From Alkalispirillum mobile (GTDB lineage Bacteria > Pseudomonadota > Gammaproteobacteria > Nitrococcales > Halorhodospiraceae): a DNA stretch of 64,000 nucleotides. Shown in pieces: positions 7,925 through 17,950 of the stretch (position 1 is the first letter of the stretch; every line of letters starts with the position of its first letter). A model generated the notes under the pieces. That model was not told the origin of the DNA. It did no database searches and was given only the letters and a program-made list of their open reading frames with translations. A program made the position numbers and the translations under genes. The stretch lies in contig NZ_RCDA01000001.1 of the NCBI RefSeq assembly GCF_003664325.1, positions 930,001 through 994,000 of the forward strand. The letters run 5' to 3'.

Positions 7925-8884
7925 ATGAGCGCTACCTTCCCGCAACTGCAACCGACAACCTTTCCGGCCATCCGCCGCCGCCAGCTGGAAACCCTGCAGG
8001 TAAACGTTGGCTATGTGTGCAACCAAACCTGTTTCCACTGCCACGTGAACGCCGGGCCCAACCGCAAGGAGAAGATGGACCGCGCCACCGCCGACCTGGT
8101 GCTGGACTACCTGCGCGAGTCCGGCGCACGCACCCTGGACCTGACCGGCGGGGCACCGGAGCTGAACCCGCAGTTCCACTATCTGGTGGAACAGGCCTGC
8201 GCCCTGGGGGTGCATGTCATGGACCGCTGCAATCTTACGGTACTGGAGCAGCCCGGACAGGCGGATCTGGCGGACTTTCTGGCCGCCCACCGGGTAGAGG
8301 TGGTGGCCTCGCTGCCCTGTTATTCGGCAGACAACGTCGACAGCCAGCGCGGCGAGGGGGTCTTCGAACAGAGCATCAACGGCCTGCGCAAACTCAACGC
8401 CGTGGGCTATGGTCAACCGGGAAGCGGCCTCACCCTGAACCTGGTATACAACCCCCTGGGCGCCACCCTGCCGCCCCCGCAGGGCCAACTGGAGGCGGAT
8501 TACAAGCGGCACCTGGCGGATGAATTCGGCATGGTGTTCAACGGCCTGTTCACGATCACCAACATGCCCATCCACCGCTTCGCCAAGCAGCTCCAAAAAT
8601 CCGGGCAGTACGAGACCTACATGGCCCTGCTCAAGTCCGCCTACCGGCCGGAGAACCTGGCCAACGTCATGTGCCGCAGTCTGCTCAGCGTGGACTGGCG
8701 CGGCTACGTTTACGACTGCGACTTCAACCAGATGCTCGCCATCCCGTTGGGCGCCGACGCCAAGCCCCGGAGCCACCTGCGCGATCTCATTGGACGCGAC
8801 CTCGACGGTGCCCCCATCGCCGTCGCGGACCACTGCTACGGCTGCACCGCCGGGCAAGGGTCCAGTTGCGGGGGCGCGCTATGA
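7925..8884 (+). CDS. arsS: Radical SAM protein of the ArsS (arsenosugar biosynthesis) type
   Basis: This 319-residue protein starts at ATG 7925 after a clear GGAGG. The radical-SAM 4Fe-4S motif CNQTCFHC (CxxxCxxC) lies at residues 38-45. LDLTGGAPELNP is the SAM-binding GGE-like strand. The C-terminal cysteine-rich tail [16 protein letters not shown] matches the ArsS family, whose members sometimes carry selenocysteine; here all positions are ordinary cysteine codons. ArsS transfers a 5'-deoxyadenosyl group to methylated arsenic in arsenosugar synthesis. Its usual partner, the methyltransferase ArsM, is not in this window. The stop overlaps the convergent sirtuin gene by 6 bp. Confidence 0.85.
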   Translation: MSATFPQLQPTTFPAIRRRQLETLQVNVGYVCNQTCFHCHVNAGPNRKEKMDRATADLVLDYLRESGARTLDLTGGAPELNPQFHYLVEQACALGVHVMDRCNLTVLEQPGQADLADFLAAHRVEVVASLPCYSADNVDSQRGEGVFEQSINGLRKLNAVGYGQPGSGLTLNLVYNPLGATLPPPQGQLEADYKRHLADEFGMVFNGLFTITNMPIHRFAKQLQKSGQYETYMALLKSAYRPENLANVMCRSLLSVDWRGYVYDCDFNQMLAIPLGADAKPRSHLRDLIGRDLDGAPIAVADHCYGCTAGQGSSCGGAL

Positions 8885-12186: not shown

Positions 12187-12576
12187 ATGAAACCGCTTAT
12201 CAAGACCGCCGTAACCCTGACCCTCGGCGCCGGCCTCACCGTCTCCGGACTGGCCTCGGCCCAGAACTGGACCACGTTCGTCGATCAGGTCCGGGCCAAT
12301 CCGCCGACCACCCTGTCCGAAGCCCAGGGCGCCGGTGTCGGGCAGAACTACGAGACCTGGGTCAATCATGTCCGGGATAACGGACCCGAAGAGCGGAGCT
12401 TCGGCGACCCCCTGGTCGGCCAGAACTACCTGCCATTCATCCAGTCCGTGCGCGAGCGGACCCTGCAACGCAAGCAGGCGGAGCGGCCAGGGGCCGCTCA
12501 ACCGACCGAGCGGGAACGCGCCCGGCACGGACGCAACAGCGTCCTTGACGCCAGGACCCGCAACCACGGGATCTGA
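12187..12576 (+). CDS. Small exported protein with three QNY/W repeats, unknown function
   Basis: This 129-residue protein has a clear Sec signal: KPLIKTAVTLTLGAGLTVSG followed by LASAQN, with cleavage likely after ASA. The mature part contains three related units: QNWTTFVDQVRAN, QNYETWVNHVRDN and QNYLPFIQSVRER. Each has the pattern QN-aromatic-x2-aromatic-hydrophobic-x2-VR, and they are spaced about 31-38 residues apart. A basic, disordered tail follows. AGGAGA precedes the ATG. I do not recognise a family. It is probably periplasmic, and repeats of this kind may bind a ligand or another copy of themselves. Confidence 0.75.
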   Translation: MKPLIKTAVTLTLGAGLTVSGLASAQNWTTFVDQVRANPPTTLSEAQGAGVGQNYETWVNHVRDNGPEERSFGDPLVGQNYLPFIQSVRERTLQRKQAERPGAAQPTERERARHGRNSVLDARTRNHGI

Positions 12577-12731: not shown

Positions 12732-13043
12732 ATGGCGGCCCACAGCACCATAGCGGACAAGATGTCCGGCGTACCCGAACCCGTCACGGACGCGCTAAGG
12801 GAGGGCCATCCATTGCCGGATACCCGCCTCGAGGCGCTGCGTCAGTTCACGGATATCATGGTTGAAACGCGCGGCCATCCGGGGCACGACGACCTGCAGG
12901 CCTTCCTTGACGCCGGTTACCGGGAGGCTGACGTCCTGGCGATCATTCTCGCCATTGCGGTGAAGACGCTCAGCAATTTCTCCAACCACCTGCTCCACCC
13001 GGAGGTGGATGAACTCTTCCGGGAACGTCAGTGGACCCCCTGA
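12732..13043 (+). CDS. C-terminal half of a carboxymuconolactone decarboxylase/AhpD-like protein
   Basis: This 103-residue protein aligns by eye with only the second half of the roughly 180-residue peroxidase-related CMD family. The matching segments are LEALRQFTDIMVETRG, LQAFLDAGYREADVLAIIL and KTLSNFSNHL. The N-terminal half with the CxxC/CxxxC redox motif is missing, and there is no cysteine at all. Either this is a remnant or a helical scaffold lacking redox activity. The start is unsure: ATG 12732 has a weak site and ATG 12762 is an alternative. It lies 103 bp ahead of the ligase fusion gene in the same direction and shares its upstream motif. Confidence 0.6.
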   Translation: MAAHSTIADKMSGVPEPVTDALREGHPLPDTRLEALRQFTDIMVETRGHPGHDDLQAFLDAGYREADVLAIILAIAVKTLSNFSNHLLHPEVDELFRERQWTP

Positions 13044-13075
13044 TTACGTAGTTTCCCCCATACCCGCCAATCGGG

Positions 13076-13096
13076 CCGCCACCTAGGCTTCTAACG
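13076..13096 (+). promoter_or_regulatory. Promoter-like motif CCGCCA-CTAGGCTT, copy 2
   Basis: This is the second copy of the 21-bp element, 50 bp upstream of the ligase fusion gene. CCGCC, CTAGGCTT and AACG are conserved with copy 1. An ACGTA box lies upstream of both copies, but at 27 bp (copy 1) and 37 bp (copy 2), one helical turn apart. A shared regulator or sigma factor is inferred. Confidence 0.4.
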
Positions 13097-13146
13097 CGGG
13101 CGGCGCACCGGGCTGCCCGCCAGAGGGACTGCACGGGGGAAACCAG

Positions 13147-15597
13147 ATGAATGCCACAGACCACCGCCGTCGCTACTGGCTGGGCGGCAAGCGAAAACGC
13201 GAGCAGGACATCTTCTTCGAGGAGGCACTCGACCCGGCGCTGTGGCAGCCCGGGGACGCGGATGACTGGCACGCCTGCTGGTACACCGGCATGCCGCCCC
13301 GGGAGGTCTTCCGCCAGACGGGACCTGACCGAACCGTCAACCATATCCCCGGCAACAATTGCCTCACGGTCAAAAGCCGGCTCTACCAGACAGTCCACAA
13401 CCTGCAGCGACGTTTGGCGGCCAGCCGCCCGGCCGGACACCCGGACCTGACGCGAGCGGATTTCGTGCCCCGGGTCTTCAGCATGCCGGGCGACTACCAT
13501 GCCCTGCAGGCCCACGCCGCCGCCCATCCCGACAAGCGCTGGCTGCTCAAGCCGAAGAACTCGGCGCGCGGCAAGGACATCTCGCTGGTATCGGACGTCG
13601 CAGAGGTACCTACCGACGACCGCTGGATGGTGCAGGAGTACCTGAGCCAGCCGCACCTGATGCAGGGGCGCAAGTACGTCCTGCGCCTCTACGTGCTGAT
13701 CACCTCGGTGGAACCGTTACGCGTCTACCTGTACGAACAGGGGTTCGCCAAGCTCGCCTCCATGCCCTATAGCCTGGAGGATGCCGACAACCCCTACGTC
13801 CACCTCACCAATCCCGACGTCAACGCCCGCAACGAGGCCGCCGACGACCCCGTGGTCTTCGTGGACCTGGAGCGCTACCGCCGCTGGTTGCGGGAGCAGG
13901 GCCACGACGACGCGGCACTGTTCGACCGACTGCGCGATATCGTTGCGCTGACCACCATCGCGGCGCGGGAGAACCTGCGGGCACAGTTGGCGCACCAGGG
14001 CGCCGATGCGGCCGGTTGCTACGAGCTCATCGGCATGGACTGCCTGGTCGACGACCGGATCCGGCCCTGGCTGCTGGAGTGCAATCTCAGTCCCTCGCTG
14101 GGCGTTTGCGCCGCACCCGAGGATGGGGGCCACATCGAAGCCGGCATCAAGCGTCGGTTGGTGGCCGACCTGGTGGCCATGGCCGGCCTCAACGATCCGG
14201 CCCCCGACAGTACAGAGCAGCACGACGACCCCGTCGCGCGCTGGCGCGCCGAAGCGGAACGGGAGGCCCGCCACTCGGGAGGCTTCGAGCGTCTGCTCCC
14301 GACAGCCGATGCGGCCCGCTACCTCGCCTGCTTCCCCCTGCCCCGCTTCGCCGACGTGGCGCTGGCCGACAGCATGAGCGAGGCCCCAGTGAGACGCCCC
14401 GCACTGCATCGCTGGCAGGTGGCCGAGGTGATCACCGAGGAAGAACTGCTGCTTTACGGAGAAGCGCACCAGGCCCTGTACGCCCCCAATCCCACCGCCG
14501 CCCTGATCTGGCTGCACGCTACCAACGGCAAGCACCCCGACGAGATCGTCGATGCATTGCAACAGACCCTTCAGGGCGCGGACCGGGGCACCCTGGAACA
14601 GCAAGTCTGGGAGGCCCTGGCCGACTGGGCGGAGGCCGGGCTCCTGGTCCAGTGCCCGGAGCCGTTGCCGGGCGAACCGGCGGTGAAAGCCACGGCACCC
14701 CCGGGCGAAACAGCCAACAGGGATCGGGCCGACACGCCCCACACCCTCTCGCTCCGGGTGGCGCAACAGCCGCTGCACCTGCGCACCTGGAGCGGTCCGG
14801 CCGCGGAGCGCCTTTTCCCGTTGCTGGCACCGCTGGCGATGGCAGCACCCGCCGAAGAGGCGCTGCAGGTGGAAATCGGCCGCTCCCACCGAGGCTACAC
14901 GGTATTGGTGGGCGGCGAGGTGGAAGCCGAACACCTGCGGCTGGCGGAGCTGGGACCGTGGTTCGTCCGCGCCCTGCTGCGCCGTGCACCAAGCTCCGGC
15001 ACCGTGGCGGTCAGCAGCACCCTGGTGACTGTCGATCCCGCGGCACCCGACGCCGCGGTGCTGGTCTGCCGCGCCGGCGCGACCGACGACGACGGTCTGG
15101 CAGCCGCCCTGACGGGCGACACCGGTCCCGCATGGGGGAGCGGTGCCACCATCGCGCTGGCGGGTGATGGCCACGCCCGTCCGCTCGGCCTCCCGCTCCG
15201 TCGGGCCCGGCACCCTTCGACCCTTTCAGAGGACCCGCTCTGGTGGTTCGGCCAACGCGGCCATCTGGTGCCGGCGACCGGAACGCCCGGACCGGACAAC
15301 CACCTGCGGGTAGCCGCCATTCTGGTGGCGATGCCGGGTGAGCACGACGGGACACTGGACCACCTCCCCCGGCGACTGAGCCTGCGTGAAGCCCTGGGCC
15401 ATCTGCTGCCAGAAACGGCCAGCCACGGTGGTACCGGCCTCGACCGCCAGACCCTGTCACGGTTTGCCGACTGGGTGGCCCAACACCCGGTCTACGCGGT
15501 GCACCCTCGGGAAACCCCCGAGACCATCACGCGGAGGGTGTACCCCATTCTGCATGACGTCACCCAGAAAAAGAGGAAGGAAAAAGCAGTGCAATAG
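13147..15597 (+). CDS. Tubulin-tyrosine-ligase-type ATP-grasp ligase fused to PqqD-like and degenerate HprK-like domains
   Basis: This protein has 816 residues in three parts. Residues about 45-335 form a TTL-type ATP-grasp domain: LLKPKNSARGKDISLVSD, VQEYLSQPHLMQGRKYVLR, LRVYLYEQGFAKLAS, HLTNPDVNARN and the metal-binding LIGMDCLVDDRIRPWLLECN. Such enzymes use ATP to join amino acids to peptide carboxylates. Residues about 421-500 (ITEEELLLYGEAHQALY, then NPTAALIWL) resemble PqqD, the fold that binds leader peptides in peptide-maturation systems. Residues about 533-816 resemble HprK-related kinases found with PqqD-like chaperones, but the P-loop position reads CRAGATDDDG and lacks GK[ST]. It precedes a DoxX gene and a Glu/Gly-tailed peptide gene. 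Domain calls are by eye; substrate and added residue are unknown. Confidence 0.8.
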   Translation: MNATDHRRRYWLGGKRKREQDIFFEEALDPALWQPGDADDWHACWYTGMPPREVFRQTGPDRTVNHIPGNNCLTVKSRLYQTVHNLQRRLAASRPAGHPDLTRADFVPRVFSMPGDYHALQAHAAAHPDKRWLLKPKNSARGKDISLVSDVAEVPTDDRWMVQEYLSQPHLMQGRKYVLRLYVLITSVEPLRVYLYEQGFAKLASMPYSLEDADNPYVHLTNPDVNARNEAADDPVVFVDLERYRRWLREQGHDDAALFDRLRDIVALTTIAARENLRAQLAHQGADAAGCYELIGMDCLVDDRIRPWLLECNLSPSLGVCAAPEDGGHIEAGIKRRLVADLVAMAGLNDPAPDSTEQHDDPVARWRAEAEREARHSGGFERLLPTADAARYLACFPLPRFADVALADSMSEAPVRRPALHRWQVAEVITEEELLLYGEAHQALYAPNPTAALIWLHATNGKHPDEIVDALQQTLQGADRGTLEQQVWEALADWAEAGLLVQCPEPLPGEPAVKATAPPGETANRDRADTPHTLSLRVAQQPLHLRTWSGPAAERLFPLLAPLAMAAPAEEALQVEIGRSHRGYTVLVGGEVEAEHLRLAELGPWFVRALLRRAPSSGTVAVSSTLVTVDPAAPDAAVLVCRAGATDDDGLAAALTGDTGPAWGSGATIALAGDGHARPLGLPLRRARHPSTLSEDPLWWFGQRGHLVPATGTPGPDNHLRVAAILVAMPGEHDGTLDHLPRRLSLREALGHLLPETASHGGTGLDRQTLSRFADWVAQHPVYAVHPRETPETITRRVYPILHDVTQKKRKEKAVQ

Positions 15598-15609
15598 TCG
15601 CCCATTACG

Positions 15610-15640
15610 CCGGGTGTTCCGTGATACTACGGATACCCGG
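15610..15640 (+). terminator. Hairpin after the ligase fusion gene
   Basis: CGGGTGTTCCGT (15611-15622) pairs with ACGGATACCCG (15629-15639), flanked by a further C:G pair, with a 6-base loop. This gives an imperfect stem of about 12 bp starting 13 bp past the stop codon. No U-run follows, so it is a weak or Rho-assisted terminator, or an RNA-stabilising stem that lowers expression of the downstream DoxX gene. Confidence 0.45.
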
Positions 15641-15734
15641 AATCGCCGCACACCTCTATTGTAGACATCAATGATCGGCCATTAACGACCTGTTTCCGGT
15701 CCCATTATCAAGCTGCAAAAGAGGGTGAAAAAAG

Positions 15735-16160
15735 ATGATCATGACAGCCGCATTATCGACAGCCAATGCAGAGTTGCAGAGGGTGGAACGCCACGCCCAC
15801 TGGTTACTCCGGGCAGTAATATTCTCGGTATTCACCTACATGGGTGTCGACAAGTTTCTGGGTGCAGGCATCGGTCCCTGGGCCGAAATGATGGGCCTCC
15901 CCCTGGGTGTTGCCCTACTCGTGGCCCTCGCAGAAATCGCCGCTGGCGTCCTGGTGGTACTCGGCGCCCTGACCAACGGCTGGGTCACCCGGCTCGGTGC
16001 ACTGGCCACAGTGCCGGTATTGCTGGGCGCGATTTTCATGGTGCATTGGGGCCAGTGGCACTTCATGCCTACGGCGACCCATCCCATGGGCGGGATGATG
16101 TTTCAGGTGAGCCTGCTATTCGTGGCGCTTTATCTCCTGGCGAGGGGCAACAAGCAATGA
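15735..16160 (+). CDS. DoxX family membrane protein
   Basis: This 141-residue protein has four hydrophobic segments: about residues 22-40, LGVALLVALAEIAAGVLVVLG-like 50-75, ATVPVLLGAIFMVHWG 85-100, and VSLLFVALYLLA at the end. FTYMGVDKFLGAG and the Trp/His-containing GQWHFMP loop fit the DoxX group of small membrane proteins, associated with quinone- or thiol-linked redox reactions and often found in peptide-maturation clusters. ATG 15735 follows GAGGGTG by seven bases. It lies between the ligase fusion and the acidic-tailed peptide genes, all in the same direction. Confidence 0.78.
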   Translation: MIMTAALSTANAELQRVERHAHWLLRAVIFSVFTYMGVDKFLGAGIGPWAEMMGLPLGVALLVALAEIAAGVLVVLGALTNGWVTRLGALATVPVLLGAIFMVHWGQWHFMPTATHPMGGMMFQVSLLFVALYLLARGNKQ

Positions 16161-16256
16161 CGATGCCGGGGCGTGCCCCGGCCATTTCCGAGCCCCAAAG
16201 GATCTCAACGGTTTTCAAGGTCCGGGTGGGTCCTCAACCGAGTGACAGGAGGCAAC

Positions 16257-16517
16257 ATGAGTGACGACAAAACAGTCCGACAGCAGTTGCTGCGCACTTT
16301 ATCGCGCAGCGTCGCCTACACCGTACCCGTACTGGCGATCGTCGGCGGCAGCGCCGGCATCCACGCCATCATGTCTGATGCGGTCGCCGACAGTGGCTAC
16401 CAGATGATGGCCGCCGCGGAGGCTGCCGGCGAGGCCGAGGCGGAAGGTGAAGGCGAAGGAGAGGCCGAGGGTGAAGGTGAAGGTGAAGGTGAAGCGGAGG
16501 GTGAAGGCGGCTACTGA
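16257..16517 (+). CDS. Small membrane-anchored peptide with tubulin-like Glu/Gly tail
   Basis: This 86-residue peptide starts at ATG 16257 after an ideal AGGAGG. Upstream ATGs in frame lack such a site. Residues 1-18 are basic-amphipathic (MSDDKTVRQQLLRTLSR). Residues 20-39 are hydrophobic (YTVPVLAIVGGSAGIHAIM), giving one membrane helix or an uncleaved signal. From residue 55 the chain is almost only Glu, Gly and Ala in EG/EA/EAEG units, ending EGEGGY. This tail recalls alpha-tubulin, which ends in EGEEY and is the substrate of tyrosine and glutamate ligases. A TTL-type ligase lies 660 bp upstream, so this is the natural candidate substrate. The function is unproven. Confidence 0.78.
   Translation: MSDDKTVRQQLLRTLSRSVAYTVPVLAIVGGSAGIHAIMSDAVADSGYQMMAAAEAAGEAEAEGEGEGEAEGEGEGEGEAEGEGGY
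16432..16514 (+). repeat. Hexanucleotide tandem repeat (GARGGN) encoding Glu-Gly
   Basis: Repeating GAAGGT/GAAGGC/GAGGGT units with occasional GAGGCC or GAAGCG encode the EG/EA tail. Synonymous third-base changes interrupt the DNA repeat while the protein pattern is kept, which suggests selection on the protein. Copy number could still vary by slippage in steps of two residues. Confidence 0.8.
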
Positions 16518-16659
16518 TGCCGCCCTGCCCCACACCGGCGCACCGGAATCCGCCCCTGCACAGGGATGTGCATTCTGTCGCAGTGCAGGTGAAGGCCACC
16601 GGCGCGGAGAGGGCCACCGCGGCCCCGCCGGGGCACCTGCCCAACCTAGGGATCAAGTC
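16518..16659 (+). other. Spacer between peptide and DinB-fold genes with a short stem
   Basis: These 142 bp have no convincing gene. CCTGCAC (near 16555) and GTGCAGG (near 16583) could form a 7-bp stem with a loop of about 20 bases. This may reduce or tune read-through into the DinB-fold gene. No promoter was identified. Confidence 0.35.
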
Positions 16660-17241
16660 ATGGGGTATCAGCACGAATGCATGAACGGTCATCCCGTCAC
16701 CGCCAGCCTGGTGGATGATAACCGGCATTTCCTCCGGCAACTGGCCGGCCTCGTTGGCGAGCTGGACGCTGAACGCTTCCGGGCCTGCAGCGGGCCTTAC
16801 GGCGGTAACGGTATCGGCAGACAGGTCCGACACATCCTTGAGCATGTGCAGTCGCTGCTGGCCGGTGCCCGGGGTGAACTCGATTACGATGACCGCGATC
16901 GGGACCCGGTGCTGGAACGGGACCCGGACCGCGCTCTGGAAACGTTGGCCAGGCTGGATGACCGGCTCGGCCAGGAGCTGGCAGCCCTGGCTCCGGACAC
17001 ACCCCTTCGCGTCGCCTGCGTCTGCAACACGGCATCGGGCCCCCACCGGACCTGGACACCCTCCAGCCTCCAGCGGGAGTTGATGTTCCTCATCAGCCAC
17101 ACGGTGCACCACATGGCATTGATCGCCATGCTCGCGGAGGAGGCCGGCCTGCGGCCCGGTGAAGAGTTCGGGGTTGCGCCATCGACGCTTCGCCACTGGC
17201 GCGCCAAGCCATCGTTCGCCGTGCCGGCGTCTGCGGGCTGA
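16660..17241 (+). CDS. DinB-fold (YfiT-like) putative metal-dependent protein
   Basis: The start is ATG 16660, with AGGGA seven bases upstream; the open frame before it overlaps the peptide gene and is not coding. The 193-residue protein has the four-helix DinB pattern, with candidate metal-binding His in GRQVRHILEHVQSLL (N-terminal helix) and in SHTVHHMALIAMLAEEAGL (HxxxH-like C-terminal helix). Characterised relatives are thiol-dependent transferases and the iron-binding helper domain of EgtB-type enzymes. Four cysteines (CMNG, CSGP, CVCN) are scattered through it. It is last in the rightward group that includes the ligase and peptide genes, so it may belong to that system. Confidence 0.7.
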   Translation: MGYQHECMNGHPVTASLVDDNRHFLRQLAGLVGELDAERFRACSGPYGGNGIGRQVRHILEHVQSLLAGARGELDYDDRDRDPVLERDPDRALETLARLDDRLGQELAALAPDTPLRVACVCNTASGPHRTWTPSSLQRELMFLISHTVHHMALIAMLAEEAGLRPGEEFGVAPSTLRHWRAKPSFAVPASAG

Positions 17242-17315
17242 GCCGACCGCCCGGGCCGGTGGCTCGGCGCCGGTCACGGCGCGGGAGAGCGGCCCGCTCG
17301 TCACGGCCCCGCCAC

Positions 17316-17950
17316 TCACTCCAGCGGGGGCCGGTCACGGTAGGCCCTGCAGGCCAGCGCCAGCCTCGCCAGGTGAGACGCACTTCGCGCCTGCATCTTC
17401 TGCATCAGGTTGCCCCGGTGGATCTCCACCGTCCGGACACTGACATCCAGATCCCGGGCGATCAGCTTGTTGGGCTTTCCGTCCAGCAACCCGTCCAGAA
17501 CCTGTCGCTCCCTTGGGGTCAACTGGGTCAGCCGGGCCTCGATCTCTTCCCGCCGGCCCTGGTCCTCCCGTTGTGCCGCGTCCAGCTCAAGCCCCTGGCC
17601 CACGGCACTGAGCAGGGCCTCGTCATCAAATGGCTTTTCCAGGAAGTCCAGGGCCCCCTCGTTCACCGCTTTGACCGCCATCGGGATATCGCCGTGCCCG
17701 GTAATAAAGACCACCGGCATCCTCACCCCCCGCTCGTGAAGGGTCGTCTGCAGCGTCAGCCCATCCATGTCCGGCAACCGCACACCAGCACCAGACACCC
17801 GCTGTCATCAGGCGTGACGCCCTGCAGCAGCCCGGCGGCATCCTCGTAGGCGCGGACGGTTATGCCCTCGGTGATCAGCAGCAGGCTCACCGCCTCCCGG
17901 ATGTCGTCATCATCATCCACCAGATGAACGGTCGGTCTGCGCGTGACCAT
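17316..17950 (-). pseudogene. LuxR-type response regulator (FixJ/TtrR-like), frameshifted in the receiver domain
   Basis: The N-terminus (MVTRRPTVHLVDDDDDIREA, from ATG 17950) is in one frame. The rest, from VRLPDMDGLTLQ through FITGHGDIPMAVKAV and KPF to the LuxR helix-turn-helix LTPRERQVLDGLLDG, is in another. The break is at 17784-17785: the reading LVL-[D]-VRLPDMDG needs one more base in the codon that would encode the phospho-accepting Asp. Either the gene is dead or one base is missing from the assembly. The intact product would be about 211 residues and would overlap the kinase gene by 38 bp as a normal two-component pair. Confidence 0.85.

Follow-up and report, generated by a model that had tools for sequence, protein, structure and literature searches.

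A bacterial TTLL-type ligase fused to a PqqD-like domain, and its proposed Glu-repeat clients

The genome of Alkalispirillum mobile encodes a protein in which a tubulin tyrosine ligase (TTL)-type ATP-grasp domain is joined to a PqqD-like domain, together with a small peptide that carries a conserved leader and a Glu-repeat tail. A gene for a protein with this leader and a Glu repeat is present in all of the fusion-positive genomes found (40/40), which belong to several gammaproteobacterial groups. The fusion and its partners probably form an RRE-guided, TTLL-type protein-modification system. A fuller proposal, for which the chances are about even, is that of a bacterial polyglutamylation code. 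Here an RRE-guided TTLL glutamylase would decorate the Glu-repeat arms of exported peptides and c-type cytochromes before secretion. The system would then be a new RiPP-like class, and the modification would be new for periplasmic proteins of bacteria. TTLL polyglutamylation is known from eukaryotes, where it modifies tubulin and ciliary proteins.

The locus and the fusion protein

The locus lies in the window, the whole stretch of 64,000 nucleotides that was analysed, in a genome of 2.95 Mb. The genes of the locus are all on the + strand and the fusion gene is single copy in the genome. The features, by position in the window, are:

12732..13043, +: CMD/AhpD-like small protein without cysteines (ORF), an occasional neighbour of the fusion
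13147..15597, +: TTL-PqqD-(PEPCK/HprK-like) fusion of 816 amino acids, the proposed ligase (Pfam, AlphaFold, Foldseek)
13327..14112, +: TTL/TTLL ATP-grasp catalytic domain, residues 61-322 of the fusion (PF03133, E 1.4e-56)
14404..14652, +: PqqD/RRE-like winged-helix domain, residues 420-502 (PF05402, E 5e-8; AlphaFold)
14734..15594, +: divergent PEPCK/HprK-superfamily-like C-terminal domain without Walker A (model; absent from short homologues)
15735..16160, +: DoxX-family membrane protein (PF07681, E 6e-9)
16247..16252, +: Shine-Dalgarno sequence AGGAGG of the peptide gene (sequence)
16257..16517, +: 86-residue precursor-like peptide with an export leader and a Glu-repeat tail (sequence, leader alignment)
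16257..16388, +: leader segment of the peptide, residues 1-44, common to peptides and cytochromes c elsewhere (alignment)
16419..16514, +: peptide tail EAAGEAEAEGEGEGEAEGEGEGEGEAEGEGGY, with 14 Glu, no Asp or Lys, and mixed synonymous codons
16660..17241, +: DinB-superfamily protein, probable start ATG 16660 (PF12867, E 1.3e-7)

An earlier note on this DNA had named the TTL-PqqD fusion, the DoxX gene and the 86-residue peptide ending in EGEGGY on this strand, and the reading frames and Pfam matches bear this out. The DinB gene probably starts at ATG 16660, since the longer ORF shares DNA with the peptide gene in a different frame. A direct Pfam search gave no family match for the CMD-like protein; its homologue in a related locus (L040:10555-11079) matches PF02627 (CMD) at E 1.2e-11. 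The DoxX protein has a weak match to HvfX (NF050144, E 0.0018). Just upstream, at 12187-12576, there is a secreted-looking protein of 129 amino acids with the internal repeats xFVDQVRANPP, WVNHVRDNGP and FIQSVRERT, for which a Pfam search found no significant family. Further away, at 7925-8884, lies a protein that resembles a radical SAM enzyme in its sequence appearance and contains the motif CNQTCFHC.

The TTL domain of the fusion scores 192 bits against PF03133, whose curated cut-off is 20.1. The best sequence matches in the PDB are TTLL6 (2.6e-38) and TTLL7 (2.2e-37), with TTL itself only at about 1e-8. Foldseek with the AlphaFold model returned TTLL6 at 9.4e-29, TTLL7 at 4.9e-22, TTLL11 at 1.5e-20 and TTL at 3e-17. 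TTLL6 and TTLL7 are polyglutamylases, and it is to these that the ligase is nearest, not to the tyrosine ligase. The ATP-grasp catalytic residues K135, K176, R180, D298, E311 and N313 are unchanged in all 19 aligned fusions. The last three correspond to D318, E331 and N333 of TTL.

Structure prediction had been proposed as a check on the three domains. The AlphaFold model of the full fusion (19 homologues, mean pLDDT 84, pTM 0.77) comprises a TTL fold, then a winged helix of PqqD/RRE order at 420-502, and lastly a C-terminal domain that is preceded by a disordered linker (about 506-529). The PqqD match covers residues 441-500 and scores 33.6 bits against a cut-off of 23.4. In the model, residues 420-502 form three to four strands followed by three helices, a beta3-alpha3 arrangement with a pLDDT of about 90. 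The lasso PqqD model NF033530 is matched by 12 of the 19 fusion homologues, and the region also has a weak match to the lasso RRE TbiB1 (5v1u, E 0.36). RREs bind leader peptides in RiPP pathways, and by analogy the PqqD-like domain may contact the leader of its client.

The third domain had been described as HprK-like. It has no sequence-family match, and when modelled alone (pLDDT 84) it returns weak PEP carboxykinase matches only, at E about 2e-3. The PEPCK superfamily includes HprK, so the description likely fits the ancestry of the domain, not a kinase function: a Walker A P-loop is found in none of 13 homologues, and HprK kinase function was rejected on this ground. Six Spiribacter-like fusions are wholly without it. 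The domain is degenerate and, because the Spiribacter-like ligases do without it, dispensable. The label “Spiribacter-like” is used here as a working name, given by kinship, for one genus of the order (g15).

Leaders, tails and cytochrome clients

Relatives of the fusion in an uncultured Ectothiorhodospiraceae, in Aquisalimonas lutea and in a near-identical MAG are each accompanied by a peptide that has this leader, followed by an acidic tail of repeats. An alignment of 22 sequences gives the leader consensus RxxLLxxLSRGLxYSAPLL. Within the leader set, R8, L11, L15, S16 and P24 vary little or not at all. The leader is signal-like, with possible AxA sites, and there is one strong match to it in the whole window genome. 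The tails are of the types (EG)n, (EAEG)n and (EAAG)n. In the Spiribacter-like loci (L048, L049, L116-L118 and L120-L122) the (EG)n repeat is replaced by (PEAT/PEAM)n, with a Glu spacing of four residues. The constant feature of all these tails is a Glu at every second to fourth residue with small residues between. A chance low-complexity ORF was ruled out by the good Shine-Dalgarno sequence, the mixed synonymous codons and the conserved leader. Homology of the peptide to HvfA/oxazolin precursors had been suggested by its GY motif, its Glu-Gly repeats and the DoxX neighbour; it was set aside, as no NCBIfam match to such precursors was found. A second type of peptide with nearly pure (EG)n tails occurs in three loci (L034:7162-7401, L035:4842-5138 and L039:7292-7774, all on the - strand), where its gene, on the other strand, separates the DoxX-peptide pair from the fusion gene.

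The clients are not confined to small peptides. In eight loci (L004, L035, L036, L111, L112, L114, L115 and L119), and also in a genus held out from the leader model, a SoxA/TsdA-type cytochrome c domain with CxxCH follows this leader and an (EAEG)n repeat. In these proteins the repeat is internal and not at the C-terminus. The attachment of heme c is periplasmic. Since the leader fronts cytochromes c, it must serve for export. Several cytochromes of the held-out genus have an SAEA/A site just before the repeat, which would therefore form an N-terminal arm of the mature protein. In the near-identical MAG, the DinB gene is followed (L004:2229-4572) by a glutamate-synthase-like FMN protein, identified by reading, and by the leader-EAEG-cytochrome c gene; these two genes are lacking at the corresponding place in the window (17241-17316).

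Co-occurrence and linkage

In searches of whole genomes, the fusion and leader genes show near-perfect co-occurrence. Of the order's 54 genomes, 17 have the fusion, and the leader was found in 17/17 of these against 2/37 of the fusion-negative genomes (Fisher 3.6e-12; this and the other Fisher value given here are indicative only, as related genomes are not independent within a genus). The two leader-only genomes, G040 and G049, are 84% and 86% complete. Both of these incomplete genomes contain a DoxX-peptide pair (L118 and L117, respectively) with no fusion detected. Across the class, 369 genomes were sampled; four of them have the full fusion, and exactly these four have the leader (4/4 vs 0/365). 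The phylum sample added two further fusion genomes from other families, both with leader genes. One of these two belongs to the held-out genus, which contributed no sequence to the leader model and so provides the strongest test. Among 146 relatives of that genome, 19 have the fusion and the leader occurs in exactly these 19 (19/19 vs 0/127; Fisher 3e-24, likewise indicative), while fusion presence is patchy within the genus. As a specificity control, eight genomes with only other TTL-like or PqqD-like genes were searched, and the leader was in none of them. Genome G246, which has separate TTL and PqqD-like genes (L065, L066), has no leader and was set aside.

The earlier note had proposed that the ligase is led by its PqqD-like domain to the Glu-rich peptide, and had held that fusions without any acidic-tailed peptide gene would speak against this; none were seen among the 40 fusion genomes. 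The comparative support for a substrate link between the fusion and the leader/Glu-repeat proteins is strong, and the proposal stands with an acidic-tailed partner in every fusion genome. Three of its details need correction, namely the tyrosine ending, the nature of the third domain and the expected distance between the genes. On the last point, a Glu/Gly-rich gene had been expected always within about 2 kb. The leader gene is at most 2 kb from the fusion in 18/23 loci. Four Spiribacter-like genomes have the two far apart or on separate contigs, and G029 also has them on separate contigs. As fusion and leader co-occur even where they are unlinked, the association is more than local, and simple operon hitch-hiking is ruled out.

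In the unlinked cases DoxX is still directly beside the peptide gene, a conserved adjacency. It had also been supposed that the DinB and CMD-like neighbours may belong to the system. DinB is indeed a conserved neighbour, and adjoins the cytochrome version in L111, L114 and L115; the CMD-like gene is an occasional one, near the fusion in the window, L036, L040 and L042. In two operons from other families the order is ligase-peptide-DinB-cytochrome (L111) and ligase-peptide-DinB-DUF302-like-DoxX (L112). The DUF302-like protein of the latter, between DinB and DoxX, is encoded at L112:6228-6773 on the - strand (E 4e-4). No MNIO (DUF692) gene was found among the recurrent neighbour clusters annotated.

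The proposed modification and its relation to known systems

It is proposed that the ligase, presumably a cytoplasmic user of ATP, acts before export of the client. In the cytoplasm, the PqqD-like domain would hold the conserved N-terminal leader in the manner of an RRE in a RiPP pathway. Using ATP, the TTLL domain would then join amino acids, most likely glutamate, by isopeptide bonds to the Glu side chains that recur at regular intervals along the disordered tail, at their carboxylates. Being a Sec-type signal as well, the leader would send the decorated client out of the cytoplasm. The clients would be the small Glu-repeat peptides, which go with DoxX, and the c-type cytochromes with a Glu-repeat arm, which go with DinB. 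Their role is perhaps that of a polyanionic arm in the periplasm for metal binding or protein docking. Precedents exist for two of these steps. In vertebrates TTLL5 glutamylates the Glu-Gly repeats of RPGR, to which it is recruited via a domain outside the catalytic core (PMC13052805), and in bufferins the signal peptide doubles as the recognition sequence (PMC12452194).

Glutamate is favoured as the added residue because the enzyme is nearest to glutamylases and because of the TTLL5 precedent. The same side chains might instead receive glycine or another amino acid, as with the glycylases TTLL3/8/10. The glutamylase and glycylase families share a fold, the donor is not fixed by sequence, and the tails alternate Glu with Gly or Ala. 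This alternative is nonetheless unlikely, as among the solved structures that matched the ligase, the glutamylases TTLL6, TTLL7 and TTLL11 come closest.

Extension of the C-terminal alpha-carboxyl, with Tyr as by TTL or with Glu as by RimK on ribosomal protein S6, is quite unlikely. The window peptide does end in GGY, and RimK is a bacterial glutamate ligase that acts on a ribosomal protein (PMC11957791, PMC8939145). The tubulin-like EGEGGY ending had been taken as a key feature. It does not hold as a shared one, and was ruled out as such, since only 7/29 small peptides end in Tyr and the C-terminal residue varies between G, Y, A, Q, S, N, H, R and D. The repeats of the cytochromes are internal, and TTL is a far weaker match to the ligase than TTLL6.

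It is very unlikely that the Glu-repeat proteins are left unmodified as acidic binders of ions or metals in the periplasm, with the ligase acting elsewhere in the same pathway. Acidic repeats alone can bind cations, and co-occurrence is evidence of a functional tie, not of catalysis. A conserved leader and an RRE fusion are, however, the signature of an enzyme-substrate pairing. In the tails of the 29 small peptides there are 469 Glu against 7 Asp, a contrast overstated to the extent that repeat slippage can expand tails; the combined count for three proteins encoded nearby in the window is 99 Glu and 107 Asp. Asp is an equally good acid, and simple cation binding would need neither a preference for Glu nor an RRE on the ligase.

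Least probable is a graspetide-like cross-link within one peptide, from Glu side chains to Lys, Ser or Thr. Such links are made by ATP-grasp ligases of known RiPPs (PMC8939145), and some tails contain Lys or Thr. The pure (EG)n tails, such as those of L038 and L039, have no Lys, Ser or Thr and hence no internal side-chain nucleophile, which rules out cyclisation there; tails of Glu, Gly and Ala alone are likewise at odds with it. The domain, moreover, is a TTL and not a microviridin-type ligase.

The predicted glutamylation of side chains may be compared with several known systems. With the eukaryotic TTLL6, TTLL7 and TTLL5, which act on tubulin tails and RPGR-ORF15, the ligase shares a homologous catalytic domain (E 1e-38 by sequence, 1e-28 by fold). 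The substrates, here proposed ones, are in both cases disordered and rich in Glu or Glu-Gly repeats, and TTLL5 is recruited to RPGR by a domain outside the catalytic core (PMC13052805), a part that the PqqD-like domain may play here. The present system differs in being bacterial, in having a PqqD/RRE domain instead of a microtubule-binding domain or CID, and in its exported clients; its activity is predicted. Bufferins and EGKCG/oxazolin RiPPs resemble it in their Sec-signal precursors, Glu-Gly-rich repeats, RRE-type recognition partners, DoxX and cytochrome c fusions (PMC12452194). Unlike the bufferins and other MNIO RiPPs, it has no MNIO among its annotated recurrent neighbours, its peptide tails contain no Cys, its enzyme is a TTL-type ligase and the likeness of its DoxX to HvfX is weak.

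Graspetides likewise combine an ATP-grasp enzyme, a leader peptide and a Glu-rich core; the ligase described here differs in its TTL family and RRE fusion, and the cores often have no nucleophilic residues. RimK, too, attaches glutamate to a protein in bacteria, as is proposed here, but it acts on the C-terminus, belongs to a different ATP-grasp family and has no leader or RRE. The HPr-rel-A system, a PqqD-related chaperone with an HprK-related kinase, has the same order of a PqqD-like and then an HprK/PEPCK-like domain, and its model TIGR04353 matches 2/19 fusion homologues (E 0.058). In the fusion, by contrast, both domains are joined to TTL, and the kinase-like domain has no Walker A and is missing in the short homologues.

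The components are each of a known kind. It is the combination of a TTLL enzyme, RRE guidance and exported Glu-repeat peptides and cytochromes that appears to be new. Literature searches on TTL with PqqD, TTLL with ATP-grasp operons and RRE with TTL, whose coverage excluded most subscription papers, found no description of it, and the string EAEGEAEG was not found in the literature searched. Two or three genes expressed in E. coli would be enough to test the core claim. If it is true, the locus would represent a new type of enzyme for leader-guided peptide modification. It would also offer a simple system, with short and genetically defined clients, for the study of how TTLL enzymes choose Glu residues and set chain length. 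For the bacteria themselves, it would mean that periplasmic cytochromes carry side-chain branching of a kind missed by standard proteomics.
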